From Anderseniella sp. (GTDB lineage Bacteria; Pseudomonadota; Alphaproteobacteria; Rhizobiales; Aestuariivirgaceae): a stretch of 64,000 nucleotides of DNA. The notes beneath the pieces were generated by a model. That model saw only the letters and a program-made list of their open reading frames with translations. It was not told the origin of the DNA and ran no database searches. The stretch spans positions 496,001 to 560,000 of the forward strand of contig JANQOK010000013.1 of the NCBI GenBank assembly GCA_028289645.1. The letters run 5' to 3'. Shown here in pieces: positions 6,647 to 57,065 of the stretch. The stretch's first letter is position 1; the number at the start of each line of letters is the position of its first letter. The position numbers and the translations under genes are program-made.

Positions 6647-7218
6647 GCCGGGTGGCAGGTGTGGTGCTGGCGGCCGGCACATCGTCCCGGTTTGGCCCAG
6701 AAAATAAGCTGCTGGCCAGCTATGGCGGGCAACCGATGCTGCGCTGCGTGGTTGAAACCGCGTTGGCCACGGAGCTGGATCCGGTTATCATAGTGACCGG
6801 CCACGACGCCGGCGGTGTTCAGCAGGCTCTGCATGGGCTGGATGTGGTTTTTGCCCACAATGCCGGGTTTGAAACTGGGCAGGCCAGCTCGCTAAAAACC
6901 GGGATTGCTGCCGTGCCGGACGGTTGCGCAGGCGCCATGATCCTTTTGGGTGACATGCCTGATGTGTCTGCTGCAGTCATCAACCAACTGTTGGACGAGT
7001 TTGCCGGCGAGGCCTGCATTGTGGTTCCGCATCATGGCGGAGTTCGCGGTAATCCGGTGATTTTGGGCAGAGGTAGCTTTAACGAGCTCGACAAAACCGC
7101 AGGGGACAAGGGAGCCCGCGACCTGTTGAGCGGTGGCAATGTCCGCATGATCGATGTGGGCACGGATGCTGTGTTGCGGGACTTTGATACGTCAAACAGC
7201 CTGAAAGGCCACCAATAG
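6643..7218 (+). CDS. MobA/MocA-like NTP transferase (molybdenum cofactor cytidylyltransferase-like)
   Basis: GVVLAAGTSSRFGPENKLLASYGGQPMLR; ILLGDMPDVSAAVINQLL; GTGA overlap. Confidence 0.88.
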   Translation: MSRVAGVVLAAGTSSRFGPENKLLASYGGQPMLRCVVETALATELDPVIIVTGHDAGGVQQALHGLDVVFAHNAGFETGQASSLKTGIAAVPDGCAGAMILLGDMPDVSAAVINQLLDEFAGEACIVVPHHGGVRGNPVILGRGSFNELDKTAGDKGARDLLSGGNVRMIDVGTDAVLRDFDTSNSLKGHQ

Positions 7219-7264
7219 CGTTTCAATGAGTCAATCCAATTGGTAAGCCGGAGTATTTCACACC

Positions 7265-7879
7265 ATGTACAAGCTGATCGGATCGCCGAAATCCCGTGCC
7301 TTCAGGGTCATGTGGATGCTGGAAGAACTGGGCCAGACCTACGAACAGGACAATGCCTCACCGCGTTCGCCGGAGGCGCTTGCGGTCAACCCGTCAGCCA
7401 AGGTACCTGCCTTCATGGATGGTGAGGACATCATCCTGGACAGTGTGGCGATCTGCCAGTATCTGGCGGACAAGCATGGCAAGTTCACCCACAAGGCGGG
7501 TACTGTGGCACGTGCCAGGCAGGACAGTTTCACCCACCTGGCGCTGGATGAGCTGGATGGATCGTTGTGGTGGGCGGCGAAGAACAGTTTCGCGCTGCCG
7601 GAAGAGCTGCGCAGCGACAAGGCCGCGGCAGCCTGCAAATACGACTACATGCGCGGACTGACCCACCTGGAAACCCGCCTTGGCGACAACCTGTATGTCA
7701 CCGGTGACGACTTCACCGTGCCCGACCTGATCATCGGGCACTGCCTGGGCTGGGGGATCAATGTAATGAAATGGCTGCCGCCGAAAGGCCCGTTGCGGGA
7801 CTATCTGGCACGGGTGCGCGAGCGGCCCGCCTTCAAGACGGCCTGGGCCAAGCGCGAAGCCGCGCCGAACATGTTCTAA
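7265..7879 (+). CDS. Glutathione S-transferase family protein
   Basis: YKLIGSPKSRAFRVMWMLEELGQTYE...NPSAKVPAFMDGEDIILDSVAICQYLADKHG. Confidence 0.9.
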   Translation: MYKLIGSPKSRAFRVMWMLEELGQTYEQDNASPRSPEALAVNPSAKVPAFMDGEDIILDSVAICQYLADKHGKFTHKAGTVARARQDSFTHLALDELDGSLWWAAKNSFALPEELRSDKAAAACKYDYMRGLTHLETRLGDNLYVTGDDFTVPDLIIGHCLGWGINVMKWLPPKGPLRDYLARVRERPAFKTAWAKREAAPNMF

Positions 7880-11151: not shown

Positions 11152-12552
11152 ATGCTGAACCCACTGCACAACCAGTATGACCACGAACAGTTGTGGGCGC
11201 TGGATCGTGATCATTTCCTGCATCCCTGGACGCATTTTGACAGCTTCAAGAAGGAAGGCTCGCTGGTGCTTGCCAAGGGCGAGGGCTGTCACGTCACCGA
11301 CACGGAGGGCAAGCAGTATTTTGACGGTATCGGCGGCATGTGGTGCGTCAACGTCGGTTATGGCCGCGATGAGCTGGCACAGACCATGGCCGAACAGGCC
11401 AGCCAGCTGGCCTATTCAAACACATTTGTCGATGTCTCCAACGCGCCGGCAGCCATGTTGTCGGGCAAGCTGGCGTCAATGGCACCGGGATCACTGAACC
11501 GGGTAATGTATTCGCTGACCGGTTCGGCCGCCAACGAGGGGGCCATCCGGATTGCGCAGTACTATCACGGCCGCAAGGGCCGCAAGTCCCGCAAGCACAT
11601 CATCAGCCGCAAGAACTCCTACCACGGCTCAACGGTGCTGACGGCTTCCGTCGGTTTGCGCGACGGCGACCGCCAGGACGAATTCCAGTACCTGACCAGC
11701 TTCATCCATCACCTGTCAGCGCCATATTATTACCGCGGCGGTGAAGGCATGAGCGAAGCCGAGTTTACCGATTTCCTGGTGCAGGAATTCAGGGACAAGA
11801 TTGCTGAACTGGGCCCCGACAACATCTCCTGCTTCATTGCCGAGCCGATCCAGGCATCGGGCGGTGTCGTGCCGCCACCTCCGGGGTACCTGAAACGCAT
11901 GATCGAGGTGTGCCACGAGCACGATATCCTGTTCATCGCCGATGAGGTCGTCACCGCCTTCGGGCGCATTGGCCACATTTTTGCGTCATGGGATGAGTTC
12001 GGCATCCAGCCGGACATGATTGTGTGCGCAAAGGGCATCACCTCGGGCTATTTCCCCATGGGCGCGACGCTCTATACCGACGAAATTCACGAAGTGATGT
12101 CGAGCGACAATCCCGACGGCTGGTTCGCTCACGGTTTCACCTGTGCCGGCCATCCGGTGGGCTGTGCCGTCGCGCTCAAGAATATCGAGATCATGGAACG
12201 TGAGGACATCTGCGGCAACGTTCGTGTGGTTGGAGATTATCTCGAAGCCCGTCTGCATGAACTGGCGGAGCTTCCCATTGTCGGCGATGTGCGCGGCAAG
12301 CGCATGATGATGTGTGTTGAATATGTTGCCGACAAGCAGACCAAGGCGCATATCCCGCATGAGGTGAATATCTCCAAGCGAATTTCCAATCTGTGCGAGA
12401 CGCGCGGTCTTCTGGTGCGTCCCATGGGCCATCTCGACGTGATGTCACCACCGCTTACCATGACCCGCGATGATGCCGACTTCCTGGTTGAAACCATCCG
12501 TGGTGCTGTTGTCGAGGTTACCGATGAACTGGTCAGGGAAGGTGTGATTTAA
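11152..12552 (+). CDS. Class III (omega) aminotransferase, PLP-dependent
   Basis: YFDGIGGMWCVNVGYGRDELA; ILFIADEVVTAFGRIGHIFASWDEFGIQPDMIVCAKGITSGYFPMGA. Confidence 0.92.
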   Translation: MLNPLHNQYDHEQLWALDRDHFLHPWTHFDSFKKEGSLVLAKGEGCHVTDTEGKQYFDGIGGMWCVNVGYGRDELAQTMAEQASQLAYSNTFVDVSNAPAAMLSGKLASMAPGSLNRVMYSLTGSAANEGAIRIAQYYHGRKGRKSRKHIISRKNSYHGSTVLTASVGLRDGDRQDEFQYLTSFIHHLSAPYYYRGGEGMSEAEFTDFLVQEFRDKIAELGPDNISCFIAEPIQASGGVVPPPPGYLKRMIEVCHEHDILFIADEVVTAFGRIGHIFASWDEFGIQPDMIVCAKGITSGYFPMGATLYTDEIHEVMSSDNPDGWFAHGFTCAGHPVGCAVALKNIEIMEREDICGNVRVVGDYLEARLHELAELPIVGDVRGKRMMMCVEYVADKQTKAHIPHEVNISKRISNLCETRGLLVRPMGHLDVMSPPLTMTRDDADFLVETIRGAVVEVTDELVREGVI

Positions 12553-47307: not shown

Positions 47308-48228
47308 ATGAGCAGGTTTGACTGTGATGACCCGGTGGTCGGCGACAAGGGTTCGTGCGATGCGATAGAACACATCATCGTGCCGCGGGCGCGGGACATC
47401 GGAGACTTCGAAGTGCGGCGCGCGCTGCCGTCGGCCAAGAAACAGATGATCGGACCGTTCATCTTCTTTGACCAGATGGGGCCGGCGAAACTGGAGGCCG
47501 GCAAGGGCATTGATGTGCGTCCGCATCCACACATTGGGCTGTCCACGGTGACATGGCTGTTCGAGGGCCAGATCTTTCACCGCGACAGTCTTGGTGTCGA
47601 ACAGGCAATCGATCCAGGTGCGCTCAACTGGATGCGGGCTGGCAGGGGCATCGTGCACTCTGAGCGCACAGCGCCCGAAGAGCGAGCCAGCGACAAGAGC
47701 CTGTATGGAATCCAGTCATGGGTCGCATTGCCGAAAGACCAGGAGGAGGCCGATCCGGGCTTCTGGCATCACGGGGCAGACGATTTGCCGGTCATCACTG
47801 ACGGCGGCGTCATGTTGCGTGTCATCGCCGGCAGCATGTTTGGCGAGACATCGCCGGTCAAAACCCATTCCGACATGTTCTACGGCGAAGCGGTGATGCA
47901 CCCCGGCGCCACCATGCCGTTGCCAGCGGTGCACGAAGAACGCGCCATCTATGTGGTGTCCGGCCAGATCCGCATTGCCGGTGACCTGTTCGAAGGCGGT
48001 CAGCTGCTGGTGTTGCGCCCGGGAGATGCGATCACCATCACAGCTGTAAAAGTCGCCCGCATAATGGTGCTGGGCGGTGAGCCGATGGACGGCCCACGCC
48101 ATATCTGGTGGAATTTCGTATCGTCATCCAAAGAGCGTATTGAACAGGCCAGGCAGGAATGGCGCGACGCGAAATTCGACATTGTGCCGGGCGATGCAGA
48201 AGAGTTCATTCCATTGCCGAAGCGATGA
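47308..48228 (+). CDS. Pirin family protein
   Basis: GPFIFFDQMGPAKLEAGKGIDVRPHPHIGLSTVTWLFEGQIFHRDSLG; MRAGRGIVHSERT. Confidence 0.94.
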   Translation: MSRFDCDDPVVGDKGSCDAIEHIIVPRARDIGDFEVRRALPSAKKQMIGPFIFFDQMGPAKLEAGKGIDVRPHPHIGLSTVTWLFEGQIFHRDSLGVEQAIDPGALNWMRAGRGIVHSERTAPEERASDKSLYGIQSWVALPKDQEEADPGFWHHGADDLPVITDGGVMLRVIAGSMFGETSPVKTHSDMFYGEAVMHPGATMPLPAVHEERAIYVVSGQIRIAGDLFEGGQLLVLRPGDAITITAVKVARIMVLGGEPMDGPRHIWWNFVSSSKERIEQARQEWRDAKFDIVPGDAEEFIPLPKR

Positions 48229-48237
48229 TGCTGCCGT

Positions 48238-49173
48238 TCATCCAGATGGCTTGAAGTCGCCGCCCAGCCGGTTCGCCAGCCAATTTGCATAAATGGCGCG
48301 CCATCCGGTTTGCCGGGTTGTGAGAAACCAGGATTGCCGCAGGTCCCAGTCGCGCTTCCACTGTTCCGCCAGCCGACCTTTATCTCCAGGGTAACCGGCA
48401 AGAGCATACATCGTGAATTCGCAGAAGTAGATGTTTTCGCCTGCCAGATAGAAGTCGCACCGAATGTGATCGAAACCTGCCGCCAAGCGTTCGGCGAGTT
48501 CAACAATCTTGCGATATTGCGCCGGCACATCCAGGACCCGATAGGCATATTTGGGGCTGTAATGAGGTTTCAGCGGTGTGCCGTCGCGATCATATCTCGT
48601 TGTATTGGGGTCTGCCCCGTAGCTGTCCCGCATGCATTGAACATGCTGGACCCTGCCGTTGACCACATAGACATTGAAGTCTTGCAAAGGTTCGCCATCG
48701 GGGCCGACAACAAACTCTTCAACAAAGATCTTGCGGTCGATGTCTCGATAGCCCCACTCTCCATTTGCCTGTCCATAGGGTTTGGACAGCCAACCGTCTG
48801 TCTTCGTTTTCAAGCTTTGCCGATCCAGCTTGGTGCAATGCAGAAATACAACCTGGCCCGATGCATGATTGCTTTTCAACACGGCGGGCGTGTCCAGCAC
48901 ATGATCGGGAATGTCATCAAAGTCCTTGCCTGACCACAGCACCTTTGGAAGCATCAGTTCGGGACACGTCCGAGCCACATAATCCTTGGCGCAAAGCTTG
49001 TCACTGAGCAATGCAAAGAGCGGGTTTCGATCGAATATCTTACGCCACAGGAATTTCTCCTCAGCAGTTTGCGGAATCGCGACATTTGGCAGGTGTCCCA
49101 ACTTCAGTGCAAACCGGAGGACCAGGTTGATGTTTAGCAGGAAAATCAACGAGTTAACGAGGTACGCTTGCAT
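48238..49173 (-). CDS. ATP-grasp fold protein, TupA-like
   Basis: TAEEKFLWRKIFDRNPLFALLSDKLCAKDYV; AVLKSNHASGQVVFL; FVEEFVVGPDGEPLQDFNVYVVNG; FDHIRCDFYLAGENIYFCEFTMYALAGY. Confidence 0.87.
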   Translation of the reverse strand: MQAYLVNSLIFLLNINLVLRFALKLGHLPNVAIPQTAEEKFLWRKIFDRNPLFALLSDKLCAKDYVARTCPELMLPKVLWSGKDFDDIPDHVLDTPAVLKSNHASGQVVFLHCTKLDRQSLKTKTDGWLSKPYGQANGEWGYRDIDRKIFVEEFVVGPDGEPLQDFNVYVVNGRVQHVQCMRDSYGADPNTTRYDRDGTPLKPHYSPKYAYRVLDVPAQYRKIVELAERLAAGFDHIRCDFYLAGENIYFCEFTMYALAGYPGDKGRLAEQWKRDWDLRQSWFLTTRQTGWRAIYANWLANRLGGDFKPSG

Positions 49174-49180
49174 GCGCGCT

Positions 49181-49897
49181 TCAACCTCCGCCTCGAATGG
49201 AGGCAGCGGTGCGAAGGCGACGGCCTGCCACAGCGATGTTCTGATAGGTGTAAGCCAGCGGTTCCCGAGACCGTACGGGAACGGCTATGCATTGTCGTTG
49301 CCGCAGCATTGCCAGATGTTCCGACCAGTTGGACAGTTCGTGAAACTGATCCTGATCGGGCAGCGGCATCCGTTCGACCGTGGTCGACTGCAGATGCAGA
49401 AAATTCTCGCCATCCTTGTCGACATGGATTCCAACCAGGCAGGAGCCGTTGCGCGCCAGCGTCTTCAGTATTGCGATGTTGCTTGGAAATATCGAGCCGG
49501 CAACAAAGCTGGCGCCAATTGACATTGCCAGTTTGACCTCTTCACCGATCAGTCGGGCGGCCAAGCCTCGCCCCTGGTATGCGGGGTCGAGTCCCACTCC
49601 ACCTGAGTAGGCAACTTCGCCCTGGTCGATGCCCAGCAACGATAACGCGCTTTGCAGGCCATCAACACACGGCGGTGGATGTAGCAGGATCGAGTATCCG
49701 ATCAACTGGCGGTCGGCAAACAGCCCTATCGCATGGCCATTGTGCTGCAGGACAGACTGAAACCATGACCGGTCACGTTCTACGAGAAACGCTTTCGATG
49801 ATGTCGTAGCCACTATGGCAGCATGGAGCCGGCTGACGGCTGCTACATCATTCGGCGACAACCGCCGAAACGCCAAATGAGAATCCGCATCCGTCAT
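49181..49897 (-). CDS. GNAT family N-acetyltransferase
   Basis: GGVGLDPAYQGRGLAARLIGEEVKLAMSIGASFVAGSIFPSNIAILKTLARNG. Confidence 0.85.
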   Translation of the reverse strand: MTDADSHLAFRRLSPNDVAAVSRLHAAIVATTSSKAFLVERDRSWFQSVLQHNGHAIGLFADRQLIGYSILLHPPPCVDGLQSALSLLGIDQGEVAYSGGVGLDPAYQGRGLAARLIGEEVKLAMSIGASFVAGSIFPSNIAILKTLARNGSCLVGIHVDKDGENFLHLQSTTVERMPLPDQDQFHELSNWSEHLAMLRQRQCIAVPVRSREPLAYTYQNIAVAGRRLRTAASIRGGG

Positions 49898-50118: not shown

Positions 50119-50883
50119 CTAGACGCACCGCCCGGCATCTACGGGCAGTGCGCATCCGGTCAACGTGGCGGCTTCTTTCGGAGAGGCTAAAAAGACAGCC
50201 GCGTTTCCAACATCTTCAGGAGTGATCAACCTGCCAAGAGGCAATGCTCCAGCAAACGCGGCGGCATCTTCATCGCTCAGGCTGCCACCTGCAAATTCGG
50301 CCAGCATTGGTGTTTCGCCAACTGCCGGAAACAGACCGTTGACCCGGATTCTTTCAGGAGCAAGTTCAAGCGCGAGTGATTTCATGAAGTAGGCTGTCGC
50401 CGCCTTTGCCATTCCATAGCCGTACAACTGCGGTCTGGGCACCAGGGCGATTCCTGACACTGTTACGATGATAGACGCATCATGAGCAGTTCTCAAAGCC
50501 GGGAGGGCGGCCTGACAGCTTTGAACAACACCTACCGAGTTGGTTTCGAACTGACGATGCAGTTCGCCGACCGGCGTATCGGATATGGAAACCGGCCGCT
50601 GGCCAATACCTGCATTTGCAACGAGAGTGTTAAGAGAGCCGAGCTTTTCCCGGCAGAACGCGATCCCGGCATCCAGGCTTTCCCTGTCGGTAACGTCTAG
50701 GCCTACACCAAATGCATGGCCGCCTTCAGCGCACAATTCCTCTGCTAGTTTTGCTGCCGAGGCAGCGTCCAAATCAGCGGCAACGACACTTGCGCCTTCG
50801 CGGGAAAACGCTCTGGCTATTCCTGCGCCAAACCCGGAACCTGCACCTGTCACGATGGCTGTTCTACCAAGCAGTCGTGCCAT
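50119..50883 (-). CDS. SDR family oxidoreductase
   Basis: AIVTGAGSGFGAGIARAFSREGA; VANAGIG; YGYGMAKAA; start at MARLLG. Confidence 0.9.
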   Translation of the reverse strand: MARLLGRTAIVTGAGSGFGAGIARAFSREGASVVAADLDAASAAKLAEELCAEGGHAFGVGLDVTDRESLDAGIAFCREKLGSLNTLVANAGIGQRPVSISDTPVGELHRQFETNSVGVVQSCQAALPALRTAHDASIIVTVSGIALVPRPQLYGYGMAKAATAYFMKSLALELAPERIRVNGLFPAVGETPMLAEFAGGSLSDEDAAAFAGALPLGRLITPEDVGNAAVFLASPKEAATLTGCALPVDAGRCV

Positions 50884-51061
50884 GGCATTGCCTCCTCTGT
50901 CACTCCATTGTCGAGAATACAGCAGATCAGAACAGCATTGCATGTTCAATCTGTAACAGCTGCGCATCCCAGCTCAATGTGGTTGCAGTCGGGCGAGTTC
51001 AGTATGGCTATGGGGTGCGAGGTGTCGTTCGGATTTTTGTGAGTTTGAGACGTCTTTTGGC

Positions 51062-51185
51062 CTGGTCAGAACCCCCCACGTTCGTGCGCGTACCGGTAAC
51101 GATGGTCACTGGTGTGGGTCTGTTGGCGTCAAGACAGGTATGGCAGCCCGGCGCTAGCGTCCGCATGCCTGGCGGTTCTTGGCGA
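51062..51185 (-). pseudogene. Decayed 3' fragment of a paralogue of the exported protein at 55911-56843
   Basis: Minus-strand reading PPGMRTLAPGCHTCLDANRPTPVTIVTGTRTNVG aligns with GPGMLTLAPGSYTYVDGKQTRTVIIVAGKRTNVR; roughly 70% nucleotide match by eye, extending over the lost stop codon. Confidence 0.75.
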
Positions 51186-51202
51186 AAGCGTATTCTTGTT
51201 GT

Positions 51203-52111
51203 TCATTCCCACGGTGGTGCCTTTCCGATTTCCGCGATCAGGAAGTCCATAAACACCCGCACCTTGGGCGATAGCACGTTGGACTTGGGATAAATGAGCC
51301 AGAGGACGTTGTCCTCGGCCCCTGTGTATTCCGGCAATACGCGCTTGAGCTGTCCCGAAGCCAACTCTGTGTGCACGCTCCAGAACGAGTTCAGCGAGAT
51401 GCCTGCGCCGGCCAGGGTCGCGCGCTTCAGGCTCAGCCCGTCATCTATGATCAACTGCCCGCTCGCTGTATCCGGATCGAACACGCCGATTTCTCCTTCT
51501 GCATTTTTGAGCGGGCGTGGGCGCACATGCCGAAATGCGATGAGCTTATGACTGGACAGATCGGACGGTGTTTCGGGCGTGCCATGCGCGTCAAGGTAGG
51601 ACGGAGTTGCGCACAGGATGCGCTTGTCATCTGCCAACTTGCGGCCTTTAAGACTAGTATCGAGCAGCGGCGCGTTTCTCAGCGCGAGGTCATAACTGCC
51701 CTCTATCAGATCGAACTGCACATCCGACAAACGCAAATCGAGTGTGAGGTCCGGGTGCTGATCCAGGAACTTCGGCAGAATCGGCGCGATGTAGAGCTGC
51801 GCAAAGGTGCTGGGGGCGGTAAATCGCAGTGTTCCGGTGGCCTTCGCTGTTCCTTTGCCAAGTGCGGTAAGTGCAGCCTCTTCCTGAGCGATCATCTCGC
51901 GCGCGAAGGGAAGGAAGTCGGCCCCCTCCAGCGACAGGGAGACTTTGCGCGTGGTGCGGTGCAGTAGCTCGGCCCCAACGCTGTGTTCAAGTTTGGCCAG
52001 TTTCGCGCTGGAAACCGCCGGAGCCATGCCAAGCCGACGTCCCGCAGCGCTGATGTTCAACAAGTCAGCGGCCAGAATGAACAGACGCAACCCGTCTGTG
52101 TCAATGCTCAT
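51203..52111 (-). CDS. LysR family transcriptional regulator
   Basis: MSIDTDGLRLFILAADLLNISAAGRRLGMAPAVSSAKLAKLEHSVGAELLHRTTRKVSLSLEG. Confidence 0.94.
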   Translation of the reverse strand: MSIDTDGLRLFILAADLLNISAAGRRLGMAPAVSSAKLAKLEHSVGAELLHRTTRKVSLSLEGADFLPFAREMIAQEEAALTALGKGTAKATGTLRFTAPSTFAQLYIAPILPKFLDQHPDLTLDLRLSDVQFDLIEGSYDLALRNAPLLDTSLKGRKLADDKRILCATPSYLDAHGTPETPSDLSSHKLIAFRHVRPRPLKNAEGEIGVFDPDTASGQLIIDDGLSLKRATLAGAGISLNSFWSVHTELASGQLKRVLPEYTGAEDNVLWLIYPKSNVLSPKVRVFMDFLIAEIGKAPPWE

Positions 52112-52136
52112 TATATTCATTTCCAGAATTATCAAT

Positions 52137-52159
52137 ACGAAAATACACTGTTTATTCGT
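52137..52159. promoter_or_regulatory. Imperfect dyad in divergent LysR/CmcJ-like intergenic region
   Basis: ACGAAAATA-CACTG-TTTATTCGT, 7/9 paired, between divergent genes. Confidence 0.4.
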
Positions 52160-52219
52160 CTAATGCCAGAAGTCATATTCATGGTCAACAGCAGGCACAG
52201 ATCACAGGAAGGCGCCCCA

Positions 52220-52996
52220 ATGGCCCGCACAGCGACAGTCAACTACCATGTGCACAAAAATGTACGACAGGCCTTTGAGCTGGACGCCGGCGGCATTGTC
52301 GGCAATCTCATTTCGCCCGAGCTTGCTCCGACGCAGGTACAATTGACTGACCTAAGGCAATCAGCGCAACCAGCGAGCTTTGCAAAGGATGCCGTGGAGT
52401 TTGCCAACCGGCCCAGCGCGGTAGAGGACTTTTCCGGGGACACATGGAAAACGACATATGACCATGAATTGAAGCTGCTTCTGACGGACAAGCTGAATGC
52501 CCTCGAAGTGGTGATTTTTGACCACACGGTGCGGGTGGATGATCCTGATGCGACGCGCAAGCCCGCGCGCAATGTCCACAGCGACTACAGCGAAGACGGG
52601 GCCAAGCAGCGCCTGATTGACACTCTGGGTGCTGACAAGGCCACACAATGGAGCAAGGGTCACTATGCCTTCATAAACATTTGGCGGCCCGTGGCCCATC
52701 CGATCAATACCGCGCCGCTCGGCTTTGTACGTCCATCGAGCGTTGATCATGAAGACTGGATTGTGCTCGATCTGATCTATCCCGATCGCAAGGGCCAGAT
52801 CATGGGGCTTGTCGGCAATCCGAACCACGAATGGCTGTATCAATCCAGGATGACACCTGATGAGGTGGCGTTCTTCAACATCTACGACAATCGCGGACTG
52901 CCTTCGATCGCGCATAGCGCGCTGGATTTGGTTGAAGACCCGGACGTCACGACAGTTCGCAAGAGCATCGAAAGCCGCATCCTGGTGCGGTATTGA
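52220..52996 (+). CDS. CmcJ/NvfI-family-like oxidoreductase
   Basis: VVIFDHTVRVDD...RNVHSDYSEDGAKQRLIDTLGADKATQWSKGHYAFINIWRPVAHPINTAPLGFVRPSSV; HEWLYQSRMTPDEVAFFNIYDNRG. Confidence 0.85.
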   Translation: MARTATVNYHVHKNVRQAFELDAGGIVGNLISPELAPTQVQLTDLRQSAQPASFAKDAVEFANRPSAVEDFSGDTWKTTYDHELKLLLTDKLNALEVVIFDHTVRVDDPDATRKPARNVHSDYSEDGAKQRLIDTLGADKATQWSKGHYAFINIWRPVAHPINTAPLGFVRPSSVDHEDWIVLDLIYPDRKGQIMGLVGNPNHEWLYQSRMTPDEVAFFNIYDNRGLPSIAHSALDLVEDPDVTTVRKSIESRILVRY

Positions 52997-53006
52997 GCGA
53001 GGCATC

Positions 53007-53972
53007 ATGTTGAGTAAACCGCAGGCAGGGACCTTTCCCCGGATCAACAAGGCGTACAATCGTGTGTTCCGCTCCGGCCGCCTGAGCGTTGGATTGGTGG
53101 TTCCACTTGAGGCTTATAGGGTCGGAGCGGAACCCACGATGAAAGGCCACCTTGAGACCGCGCAACTGGCCGAGTGTCTGGGGTTTTCCGCGCTTTGGCT
53201 GCGGGATGTGCCATTCAATGTGCCGAGTTTCGGCGATGCGGGGCAGATTTTTGATCCCTTTGTTTATCTAGGTTCACTGGCCAGCGTGACCGACCGTATT
53301 GCGCTTGGCACTGCCAGCATCATTCTGCCGTTGCGCCATCCCGCCCATGTGGCCAAAGCTGCGGCAACTGCGGATGTTCTGTCTGGTGGACGGCTGCTGT
53401 TGGGTGTGGCATCGGGCGACAGGCCCGAAGAGTATCCGGCGATGGGCCAAACCTACCACGACCGCGCGGCGCAGTTTCGCGACAGCATAGCCTACATCCG
53501 TGCAATGGCAGATGCCTATCCGCGCCACCAAAGCGCGCGAGGACTTCTGTCGGGTGATATCGACCTGTTGCCGAAACCCACAGGTGCACGCCTGCCGCTT
53601 TTGATCACCGGCGGCAGCCAGCAATCGCCGGATTGGGTGGCGCAGAACGGCGACGGGTGGATGACCTATCCACGGGACGCCGAGTCTCAGGGGCGCGTCA
53701 TCGCAGATTACCGGGGTCGGCTGCTGGCGTGGAGTCAACCCGACAAACCAGTGATGCAATCGCTTTATGTCGACTTGCTTGACGATCCGGATGCGCCGGC
53801 GCGGCCTATCCACCTGGGCTTTCAGTCCGGCACGGACTTCCTGCGTCGTTACCTGCGCGAAATTGAGACGCTGGGGGTGAACCACGTTGCCCTTAACCTT
53901 CGCTTCAACGGTGCACCTATCGACATCACGCTCAAGCGGCTGGCGGACGATCTGCTGCCCATTTTCAACTGA
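53007..53972 (+). CDS. LLM class (luciferase-like) flavin-dependent oxidoreductase
   Basis: LAECLGFSALWLRDVPF; LGTASIILPLRHPAHVAKAAATADVLSGGRLLLGVASGDRPEEYPAMG. Confidence 0.92.
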   Translation: MLSKPQAGTFPRINKAYNRVFRSGRLSVGLVVPLEAYRVGAEPTMKGHLETAQLAECLGFSALWLRDVPFNVPSFGDAGQIFDPFVYLGSLASVTDRIALGTASIILPLRHPAHVAKAAATADVLSGGRLLLGVASGDRPEEYPAMGQTYHDRAAQFRDSIAYIRAMADAYPRHQSARGLLSGDIDLLPKPTGARLPLLITGGSQQSPDWVAQNGDGWMTYPRDAESQGRVIADYRGRLLAWSQPDKPVMQSLYVDLLDDPDAPARPIHLGFQSGTDFLRRYLREIETLGVNHVALNLRFNGAPIDITLKRLADDLLPIFN

Positions 53973-53984
53973 AGGACCGAACTT

Positions 53985-54773
53985 ATGACCAAGACCATTC
54001 TCATCACTGGCTCAACAGACGGCATCGGCCTGCTGACCGCGAAGAAGCTTGCCGCCGACGACCATCATGTTCTGCTGCATGGACGTAACGCTGCAAAGCT
54101 GCAAGCTGCGTCTTCCCAGGTCGGTGGCGGGGTCGAGACATTCAGTGCTGACTTGTCCGACATGTCGGCAGTTAAATCGCTGGCCGCGGACATCCGCGCC
54201 AAACACAACAAGCTGGACGTGCTGATCAACAATGCCGGGGTGCTGAAAGTTCCCCAACCTGTGCTCGAAAGCGGGCTGGATGTCCGCTTTGTCGTCAATA
54301 CGTTCGCACCTTATCTGCTGACCGAGTTGCTATTGCCGATCATTCCGAAGAACGGCAGGGTCGTGAACCTGTCTTCCGCAGCCCAAGCGCAGGTGAGCCT
54401 GGATGCGATGCTGGGCAAGGCCCGCCTTGCCGATATGGACGCCTACGCCCAAAGCAAGCTCGCGATCACCATCTGGACCCGGGAATGGGTCAAGGCGCTG
54501 CCTGACGGTCCCGCGATGATCGCTGTGAATCCCGGATCTTTACTGGCCTCCAAGATGGTGAAGGAGGGCTTTGGCGTGCCGGGGAAAGATATGAATATCG
54601 GAGCCGATATCCTGATCGAAGCCGCACTTGGCCGTCGATTTGCCGATGCATCCGGTGCCTATTTCGATAATGACAGCGGCGCGTTCGCGCAACCGCATTC
54701 CGCGGCCTTGAATGCCGCACACTCGGCTGAGGTCATGGAAACGATCCAGGCCGTCGTGCGCCAACACGGCTGA
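53985..54773 (+). CDS. SDR family NAD(P)-dependent oxidoreductase
   Basis: [47 protein letters not shown]. Confidence 0.92.
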
Positions 54774-54863
54774 CCCGAGCGGCGTGCATCGCGCGCGCAT
54801 CCCCAAGTGTTTAACCGCAATGCCTCGCATCTTTGATGCCGAGGCCCAAGAAAGGACTGTCCA

Positions 54864-55709
54864 ATGAAATACGAAAACTTCCAGACCTTCGACGTCCATG
54901 TCGAAAACGCGATCGCTACGGTTACCTTCAATTTTGGTACCGTGAACGTGCAGGGCCAGGAGATGCTGGCCGACCTCAACAGCCTTGCGATGCGGCTGGA
55001 ACGGGACCGCGATACCAAGGTTGTGATCTTCCAATCGGCAAACCCTGAGATCTGGGTCTGCCACTATGACACAGAGTTGCTCAAGGACATGTCAACCGAA
55101 GCGGTGTCGCGCGACGATGCGCGACTGCTGGACCTGCAATCAGTTTGCGAACGCATCAGCAAAGTGCCGCAGGCAACCATCGCCAAACTGGAAGGGTTTG
55201 CACGCGGCGGTGGGCACGAACTTGCACTTGCCCTGGACATGCGGTTTGCGGCGCGGGGCAAGTTCAGATTTATGCAGATGGAAGTGGGAATGGGCATTCT
55301 GCCCTGCGGCGGCGGAGCATCACGGATGGCGCGTCAAACCGGCCTGGGCCGCGCCCTTGAGATCATCTTGAGCGCACAGGATTACGATGCTGATGATGCT
55401 GAGCGGATGGGCACCATAAACAAGGCGCTCGAGCCCGGAGAAATCGGCCCCTACGTTGACGCACTGGCTCAACGTATTGCCCAGTTCCCGGCAGAGTCCA
55501 TCAACGCCTGCAAGCAAATGGTTTACGAGTCCATCGACAAGCCCATTGCTGACGCCCTCATGGCCGAAGCCTATTGGCTCTATCAGGCCACCAGCAAAAC
55601 TCCAGCCATCAAGCGCTTTAGGATAGCTGACGAGCAAGGTCTTGAACATGAAATCGATAATCAGCGGAATTGGAATGATCTGGTCATGAAGGTTCAGGAA
55701 ATAAACTGA
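54864..55709 (+). CDS. Enoyl-CoA hydratase/isomerase (crotonase) family protein
   Basis: VVIFQSANPEIWVCHYDTELL; KLEGFARGGGHELALALDMRFAARGKFRFMQMEVGMGILPCGGGASRMARQTGLGRALEIILSAQ. Confidence 0.92.
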   Translation: MKYENFQTFDVHVENAIATVTFNFGTVNVQGQEMLADLNSLAMRLERDRDTKVVIFQSANPEIWVCHYDTELLKDMSTEAVSRDDARLLDLQSVCERISKVPQATIAKLEGFARGGGHELALALDMRFAARGKFRFMQMEVGMGILPCGGGASRMARQTGLGRALEIILSAQDYDADDAERMGTINKALEPGEIGPYVDALAQRIAQFPAESINACKQMVYESIDKPIADALMAEAYWLYQATSKTPAIKRFRIADEQGLEHEIDNQRNWNDLVMKVQEIN

Positions 55710-55910
55710 TCCAGCAGCCATGAAACATGCACGGGGCGCGGGCACGCCTGCGCCCTGTTAACGGTGCGGTCCATATGGGCTGAACAGTGCCATGCCATGC
55801 AGCAATGACCTCATATAGGAAGATGAGCTGAACTGTTGAATAAATGCAGTTGCTGAGACAGCCGCTCCAAGCCGCCGTTCGGCACCGTGTAAATTCGGCA
55901 GGCCCTTGCT

Positions 55911-56843
55911 CTAGTCAGCAACTCGCACATTGGTGCGTTTGCCGGCGACGATGATCACGGTGCGGGTCTGTTTGCCGTCCACATAGGTGTAGCTGCCTGG
56001 TGCCAGGGTCAGCATGCCCGGTCCGACACCGGACCGGCGCCAGTTCTTTTCGCTACTGTTAACAGACCACGGAACCCCCTCGGGTGCATTGATGACGGCA
56101 ATGCCGGCCTGATGATCGAGATTGAGCGAGGTGAGTATGCCCGGTTTGATGGTTACTTCCGTGTGAGTGACGGTGTTGCCGGGCTCGATTTCGCTTTCAA
56201 GCCGGTAGGTGCCTGCGCCCAGCCGCATCAGTCCGCCCTGGCGGTCCGAAGTGGCAATGAGCCGGCCCGATCTCGTGCCGTTGATGGCGTAGGCTCTGTG
56301 AACGGCGCGTACCCGGCTCGGCAAGGGCTCGTTGCCCAACGTTGACAGGGTGCGCAGCCCACCGACGTTGAATACGAATGTCAGGCCCAGCTGCTGGCCC
56401 TTGGCCAGAACCACCGGCTTGATCGCCGACACGCTGCCATAGCGTGCCTCAATGCGATAATTGCCGGGCTCAAGCGGGACGTCCGCTACGGGCCGGTCTT
56501 CGCTGTAGACAGTTTCGCCGCCGTGTTCGCCGTTGCCAAGGGTGCGGACGAGTTTCCAGGTAACCGGCTTGGTAATCAGGCCGCCTTGTTGCGACAGGCG
56601 CCCGGCAAGCCGGATGCCTTCACGGCCGGGTTTGGTGATCTCGATGCGCAGTTCAAAGGGAACTTCCGAGGTTGCTGCAGGCAGTGAGCCGGTGACGACC
56701 GGATCGGCGACCGTGGGCTGCGCGGCGGGGGCGGGCGATGCCGCCAAACCAATCAGCAAACCGGCGCCGACAAAGTTCAGGGCCGCCCCTGTGAGAAAGC
56801 GGCCCCGACTGTGCTGTCGTGCACGTTGGAGAAGTACGTGCAT
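55911..56843 (-). CDS. Exported protein with repeated PEGA-like beta-strand modules, function unknown
   Basis: N-terminal hydrophobic segment LNFVGAGLLIGLAASPAPAAQ; repeated VPLEPGNYRIEARYGS, MRLGAGTYRLESEIEPG, LTLAPGSYTYVDGKQ. Confidence 0.78.
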   Translation of the reverse strand: MHVLLQRARQHSRGRFLTGAALNFVGAGLLIGLAASPAPAAQPTVADPVVTGSLPAATSEVPFELRIEITKPGREGIRLAGRLSQQGGLITKPVTWKLVRTLGNGEHGGETVYSEDRPVADVPLEPGNYRIEARYGSVSAIKPVVLAKGQQLGLTFVFNVGGLRTLSTLGNEPLPSRVRAVHRAYAINGTRSGRLIATSDRQGGLMRLGAGTYRLESEIEPGNTVTHTEVTIKPGILTSLNLDHQAGIAVINAPEGVPWSVNSSEKNWRRSGVGPGMLTLAPGSYTYVDGKQTRTVIIVAGKRTNVRVAD

Positions 56844-57065
56844 TCAATTTTCCCTGTCAGACTTCTGGATGCCCCGCTTTGGCAGGGCCCGGTCTGCATA
56901 TCCCCCGACCTTCAATCCGATCGGCAAAAAGACCAAACCACAGCACTTGCCCGACCCGCAATTAAATACTTAATAGAAGGTTAACGGGATCGTTTCAGGT
57001 TTAGTAAACGCCTATATACGGTGTTATGAAAGTCACGGAAAATCCGTCGGATCAGAGGATGATCA

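Follow-up and report, generated by a model that had tools for sequence, protein, structure and literature searches.

The window analysed here, a 64,000-nt stretch of the genome of an Anderseniella species (G000), carries a run of eight intact genes and one gene remnant between a pirin-like gene and an intact gene for an exported protein, EXP (Table 1). Following the pirin-like gene are the genes of a TupA-like ATP-grasp protein, a GNAT acetyltransferase and a short-chain dehydrogenase/reductase (SDR1), then a fragment resembling the 3' end of EXP, and then a LysR-family regulator gene divergent from a four-gene operon that encodes a CmcJ-type oxygenase, a luciferase-like (LLM) oxidoreductase, a second dehydrogenase (SDR2) and a crotonase-fold protein (ECH). 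The regulator gene and the operon together (51203-55709) are called the cassette below.

Table 1. Features of the locus in window coordinates, with the matches or remarks behind their names
Feature	Coordinates	Strand	Basis or remark
Pirin-like gene, native gene to the left of the insertion slot	47308..48228	+	Name given by eye
TupA-like ATP-grasp, left half of inserted block	48238..49173	-	PF14305 1.7e-20; absent from the G001, G004 and G002 gap
GNAT acetyltransferase, left half of inserted block	49181..49897	-	PF00583 2.5e-6; absent from the syntenic gap
SDR1, left half of inserted block, between pirin and fragment	50119..50883	-	PF13561 1.1e-49
Decayed EXP 3'-end fragment	51062..51173	-	Direct repeat of 55911-56021; stop lost, 1-nt indels
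LysR-family regulator, divergent from operon	51203..52111	-	PF03466 1.9e-36, PF00126 1.3e-12
CmcJ/NvfI-family Fe(II)/2OG-type oxygenase (CmcJ), predicted	52220..52996	+	NF041278 251.8 bits vs cut-off 80
TIGR03571-family luciferase-like oxidoreductase (LLM)	53007..53972	+	TIGR03571 380.6 bits vs cut-off 303.9
Short-chain dehydrogenase/reductase SDR2	53985..54773	+	PF00106 5e-28
Crotonase-fold enoyl-CoA hydratase-like ECH	54864..55709	+	PF00378 7.7e-28
EXP, intact exported protein, probable native family gene	55911..56843	-	No Pfam or NCBIfam family

With a score above the curated cut-off of NF041278, CmcJ falls in the CmcJ/NvfI family; its profile matches the solved 2OG oxygenases 7eus and NvfI (7de2), and its HxD...H positions were aligned to those of 7eus. 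The solved structures nearest to ECH are 3h0u and 3gkb. The plain reading of this cargo is a substrate-induced oxidative pathway made up of a 2OG-type oxygenase, a flavin LLM monooxygenase, an SDR and a crotonase, and we infer that, under control of LysR, such a pathway would modify or break down a small organic compound. Because the operon is widespread in marine Alphaproteobacteria and no described function for it was found in the open-access literature that we searched, it represents a reasonable target for functional study.

The remnant is, in fact, a direct repeat of the end of EXP. In a blastn search against the whole window, the fragment matched the EXP 3' end with 74.1% identity over 112 bp (E = 4.3e-13), and no second comparable match was found there (next-best E = 0.11). 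The two copies lie 4848 bp apart in the same orientation, much as the original prediction had described them (about 4.85 kb), and the pairwise local alignment of 50950-51210 with 55700-56850, which had been put forward as a check, scored 75, whereas the best of 1000 dinucleotide-preserving shuffles scored 32. Also as described there, the fragment has lost its stop codon, which on its own (minus) strand now reads CAG in place of TAG, or CTG in place of CTA on the plus strand, and it carries compensating 1-nt indels. A further claim, that the homology reaches 51185 by way of a deletion of about 19 nt, was rejected, as 326 of 1000 shuffles were as good, and the supported homology is that given in Table 1. 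When EXP was used as a query in a whole-genome tblastn search, only EXP itself and the place of the fragment were matched, the latter with 43% identity to EXP residues 257-308 and with one internal stop. A reading of the fragment as a decayed EXP tail is supported by these sequence matches. The similarity of the two copies may also continue past the stop for some 35-50 nt of the 3' flank, which is suggestive only: with the flanks anchored at the stop, 26 of 400 shuffles were as good when the fragment was compared to its own EXP and 11 of 400 when it was compared to the EXP gene of the congener G001, and the shared flank was not significant by free local alignment.

Differences in the fragment are distributed over the codon positions as 8/6/13, compared to 5/4/14 between G000 and G001 over the tail, a pattern in keeping with relaxed constraint. 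At 15 informative sites, the fragment sides with its own EXP at 11 and with the G001 copy at 4 (p = 0.06); a tree placing it beside its own EXP is the best one, not significantly so, and all trees tested survive the AU test. If the tail drifted neutrally and Jukes-Cantor distances apply, the divergence of the fragment gives the duplication an age of roughly 0.7 (0.43-1.0) relative to the split of G000 and G001, and the scar provides a rough relative date for the event.

In three congeners (G001, G004, and G002) the gene order at this locus is KefB-pirin-EXP-nitroreductase-HAD, and the gap between pirin and EXP measures 1150, 386, and 11 bp, respectively, as opposed to 7.7 kb in the window. The pirin-like gene is 91-95% identical in G001 and G004, where it adjoins EXP. 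The cassette genes are absent from all three gaps, and no EXP-tail homologue was found in them. The site is empty of the cassette in these relatives, which were the genomes compared, G003 and G005 having been left out as neither has an EXP match (the G005 contig ends 300 bp past pirin). The original prediction had drawn its interval from 51030 to 56060; the cassette and the repeat do lie inside it, but the left part of the block was missed, as this extends to 48229, well past the interval, and the fragment is thus located inside a 7.7-kb insertion.

The gap seems to accommodate other DNA as well. In G001 (L032) it is occupied by two ORFs, one GNAT-like and the other resembling a PilZ-type protein, both named by eye, while in G004 (L033) the roughly 390 bp have inverted ends, ATACCAACGGAAGTAATTATTGA ... 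TCAATAATTGCTTCCGTTGGTAT, also seen by eye, and resemble a small non-autonomous element. With two other ORFs in one congener and an inverted-end piece in another, the pirin-EXP gap is a variable slot, and the G001 ORFs indicate that it takes different cargo across species. Among the genes of the left half of the block, SDR1 has its best relatives (52-55% identical) at sites other than this locus. As to the TupA-like ATP-grasp genes, at E <= 1e-20 there are 19 in G000, compared to one in G001, eight in G003, five in G005 and none in either G002 or G004, which would represent a large expansion in G000, though the assemblies of G002, G003, and G005 are incomplete.

A search of 69 family genomes found EXP in 59. 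It adjoins nitroreductase and HAD genes at most of the family loci that we read, yet it belongs to no Pfam or NCBIfam family. The intact copy in the window is probably the native gene, a conclusion well supported because its neighbours are kept, the protein is 79% identical to that of G001, and the 3' flank of the gene is similar to the G001 flank, a similarity equalled by 1 of 400 shuffles. Besides G000, a second EXP match appeared in three genomes, namely G325, where it consists of pieces of one contig plus a weak match, and G334 and G344, where the matches are weak (23-26% identity). No second near copy of EXP was found among the 69 genomes.

The cassette itself is of foreign origin. For CmcJ, the family members sampled offer only a 30% match and a sample of 298 genomes of the same order a best match of 66%, while its nearest relatives in the GTDB collection, from Ruegeria and Pelagibius, are 80-81% identical. 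In the tree, the CmcJ of the window falls in a starred clade (SH-aLRT 96) with 27 rows, 24 of which are Rhodobacterales, and its phylogeny thus appears to conflict with the taxonomy of the genome. No ECH orthologue was found in 44 related genomes, and where related cassettes include ECH, it is 87-94% identical in most of them. Across 80 loci the genes keep this order, in versions with or without LLM and ECH, and the divergent position of LysR is conserved in most of them; the cassette is a conserved operon of marine Alphaproteobacteria, common in marine roseobacter-type bacteria. Its edges are sharp, as DNA similarity to the other cassette loci breaks off on the left at 51194-51206 and on the right at 55709-55716, at the stop codons of LysR and ECH. 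Based on these limits, what can be recognised as foreign is confined to the operon, whose left edge comes to within about 30 bp of the EXP-tail fragment. A source for the 200 bp between ECH and EXP did not emerge from our origin search; positions 55849-55878 do have a 30-bp match in G001, but at another locus whose surroundings matched nothing else, and it was set aside as a coincidence. Composition is only weakly different, with a G+C content of 57.6% in the cassette and of 60.9% and 60.0% in its flanks, and the range found across the window in 4.5-kb windows (54-62%) covers the cassette. Of the two tests of foreignness suggested at the outset, phylogeny gave a difference, with CmcJ among Rhodobacterales, and G+C content the weak one just given. 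Taken together, the data support that the LysR cassette was acquired horizontally and entered next to EXP.

Our preferred explanation, in which we have a confidence only slightly above even, is that the native EXP gene received the cassette at its 3' end, its tail of about 110 bp being duplicated in the process, and that the spare tail decayed. A LysR-regulated operon acquired horizontally would have integrated at the EXP 3' end in such a way that the last ~110 bp were duplicated, with EXP kept whole on the side of the nitroreductase gene and a direct repeat, the 5'-truncated tail, remaining next to LysR. This redundant copy would then have been free to drift, down to its present 74% identity. 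A likely route would be a single crossover of circular or re-circularised DNA in which a short piece of the EXP tail accompanied the cassette. That the insertion and the duplication go back to one event, and that this event was a crossover, is what we infer, because no recombinase family was matched by any of the eight intact genes of the block in a Pfam and NCBIfam scan and no donor combining the cassette with an EXP tail turned up, this genome being the only one in which we saw such a tail next to the LysR end.

The same layout would have resulted if the cassette and an EXP gene had arrived together from a close relative, by homologous recombination in or beyond EXP on the right, while on the left the incoming DNA was joined illegitimately within the tail of the resident EXP. 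In that case the fragment would be what is left of the resident gene, and all or part of the intact EXP would be imported. One-sided recombination of such kind is documented (PMC3240628), and over the tail the fragment differs more from its own EXP (74% identity) than the G001 copy does (80%). A decaying tail, however, is expected to show extra divergence; furthermore, the intact EXP tracks the surrounding synteny, with the G001-like 3' flank mentioned above, and no congener with the cassette was found. We consider this joint import unlikely. Somewhat more doubtful is an account in which EXP was duplicated in tandem first and the cassette was then inserted into, or replaced most of, one of the two copies. 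Although this sequence of events would leave a tail fragment in the right orientation, no tandem EXP exists in the 69 family genomes searched, there is no trace of one in the pirin-EXP gaps of the three congeners, and an extra event is needed. The original prediction had allowed for the cassette either entering beside, or replacing most of, a tandem copy of EXP; entry beside EXP agrees with a foreign cassette and a site that is empty in relatives, but a tandem copy does not agree with the lack of a second near copy in any sampled relative, which makes a former full tandem copy unnecessary. Both joint import and loss of a tandem copy, in addition, need more events or sequences that were not seen.

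It is also conceivable, even if quite improbable, that the fragment came with, or was generated by, the TupA-GNAT-SDR1 block in an unrelated event, and that the cassette landed beside it by chance later. The slot is indeed variable, with other genes in G001 and a short inverted-end piece in G004. Chance adjacency, however, does not explain why the fragment should be separated from the edge of the cassette by no more than about 30 bp and point as EXP does.

Integration with duplication of the EXP tail has counterparts among known systems. Conjugation experiments in E. coli yielded single-crossover integrants in which 109-950 bp of the end of the target gene were duplicated beside the insert (PMC3240628). 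In such Campbell-type integration, foreign DNA lies between direct repeats of a gene end, as it does here, and the duplicated lengths bracket the 112 bp of the window. In contrast to these experiments, the case described here is natural, old and decayed, its target gene is whole, and no donor circle or crossover was seen. Homology-facilitated illegitimate recombination resembles the window in that homology is one-sided and the other side is joined non-homologously, but it usually deletes resident DNA, whereas the window shows a duplication and no apparent deletion. Integrative elements at gene 3'-end attachment sites likewise leave the gene tail repeated at both ends of the insert; here, however, there is no integrase, only a regulator and enzymes lie between the repeats, and the repeat is long and diverged. 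A tRNA attachment site was rejected, since no tRNA was found in the window, and a genomic island of the integrase type was discarded on the same ground, for want of a recombinase, and because the repeat has 112 bp at 74% identity in place of a short and near-identical one. The event is of a known kind and belongs to ordinary genome evolution, with an unusually legible trace, and it provides a clear worked example of how an operon can be added beside a resident gene without destroying it.

Operons with the arrangement LysR-CmcJ-(LLM)-SDR-(ECH) in Ruegeria, Pelagibius, Roseibium, Kiloniella, and others have their genes in the same order and orientation as in the window, with 73-94% protein identity at the nearest loci, and their neighbours differ from those found here. 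Some are devoid of LLM or ECH, or have an additional gene nearby, resembling either a 2OG oxygenase (27 loci of other bacteria) or a quinone oxidoreductase (20 loci). A general habit of the cassette to be flanked by gene-tail repeats was rejected, as none of the 75 other loci had them (76 were compared, including the window). We consider it extremely improbable that the LysR-CmcJ operon, having no recombinase itself, travels by picking up short gene tails time after time, with the EXP-tail scar as one readable product. Among the same 75 loci, the only long flanking repeat corresponds to two recombinase genes in L108, a Halocynthiibacter locus where the operon lies between two gene copies for a small protein of the phage-integrase family (6831-7493 and 11743-12372), the flanks being 88% identical over 750 bp. 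Relatives of this protein are also encoded near the operon in L086, L088, and L126, and its family assignment comes from a scan of the L086 member.
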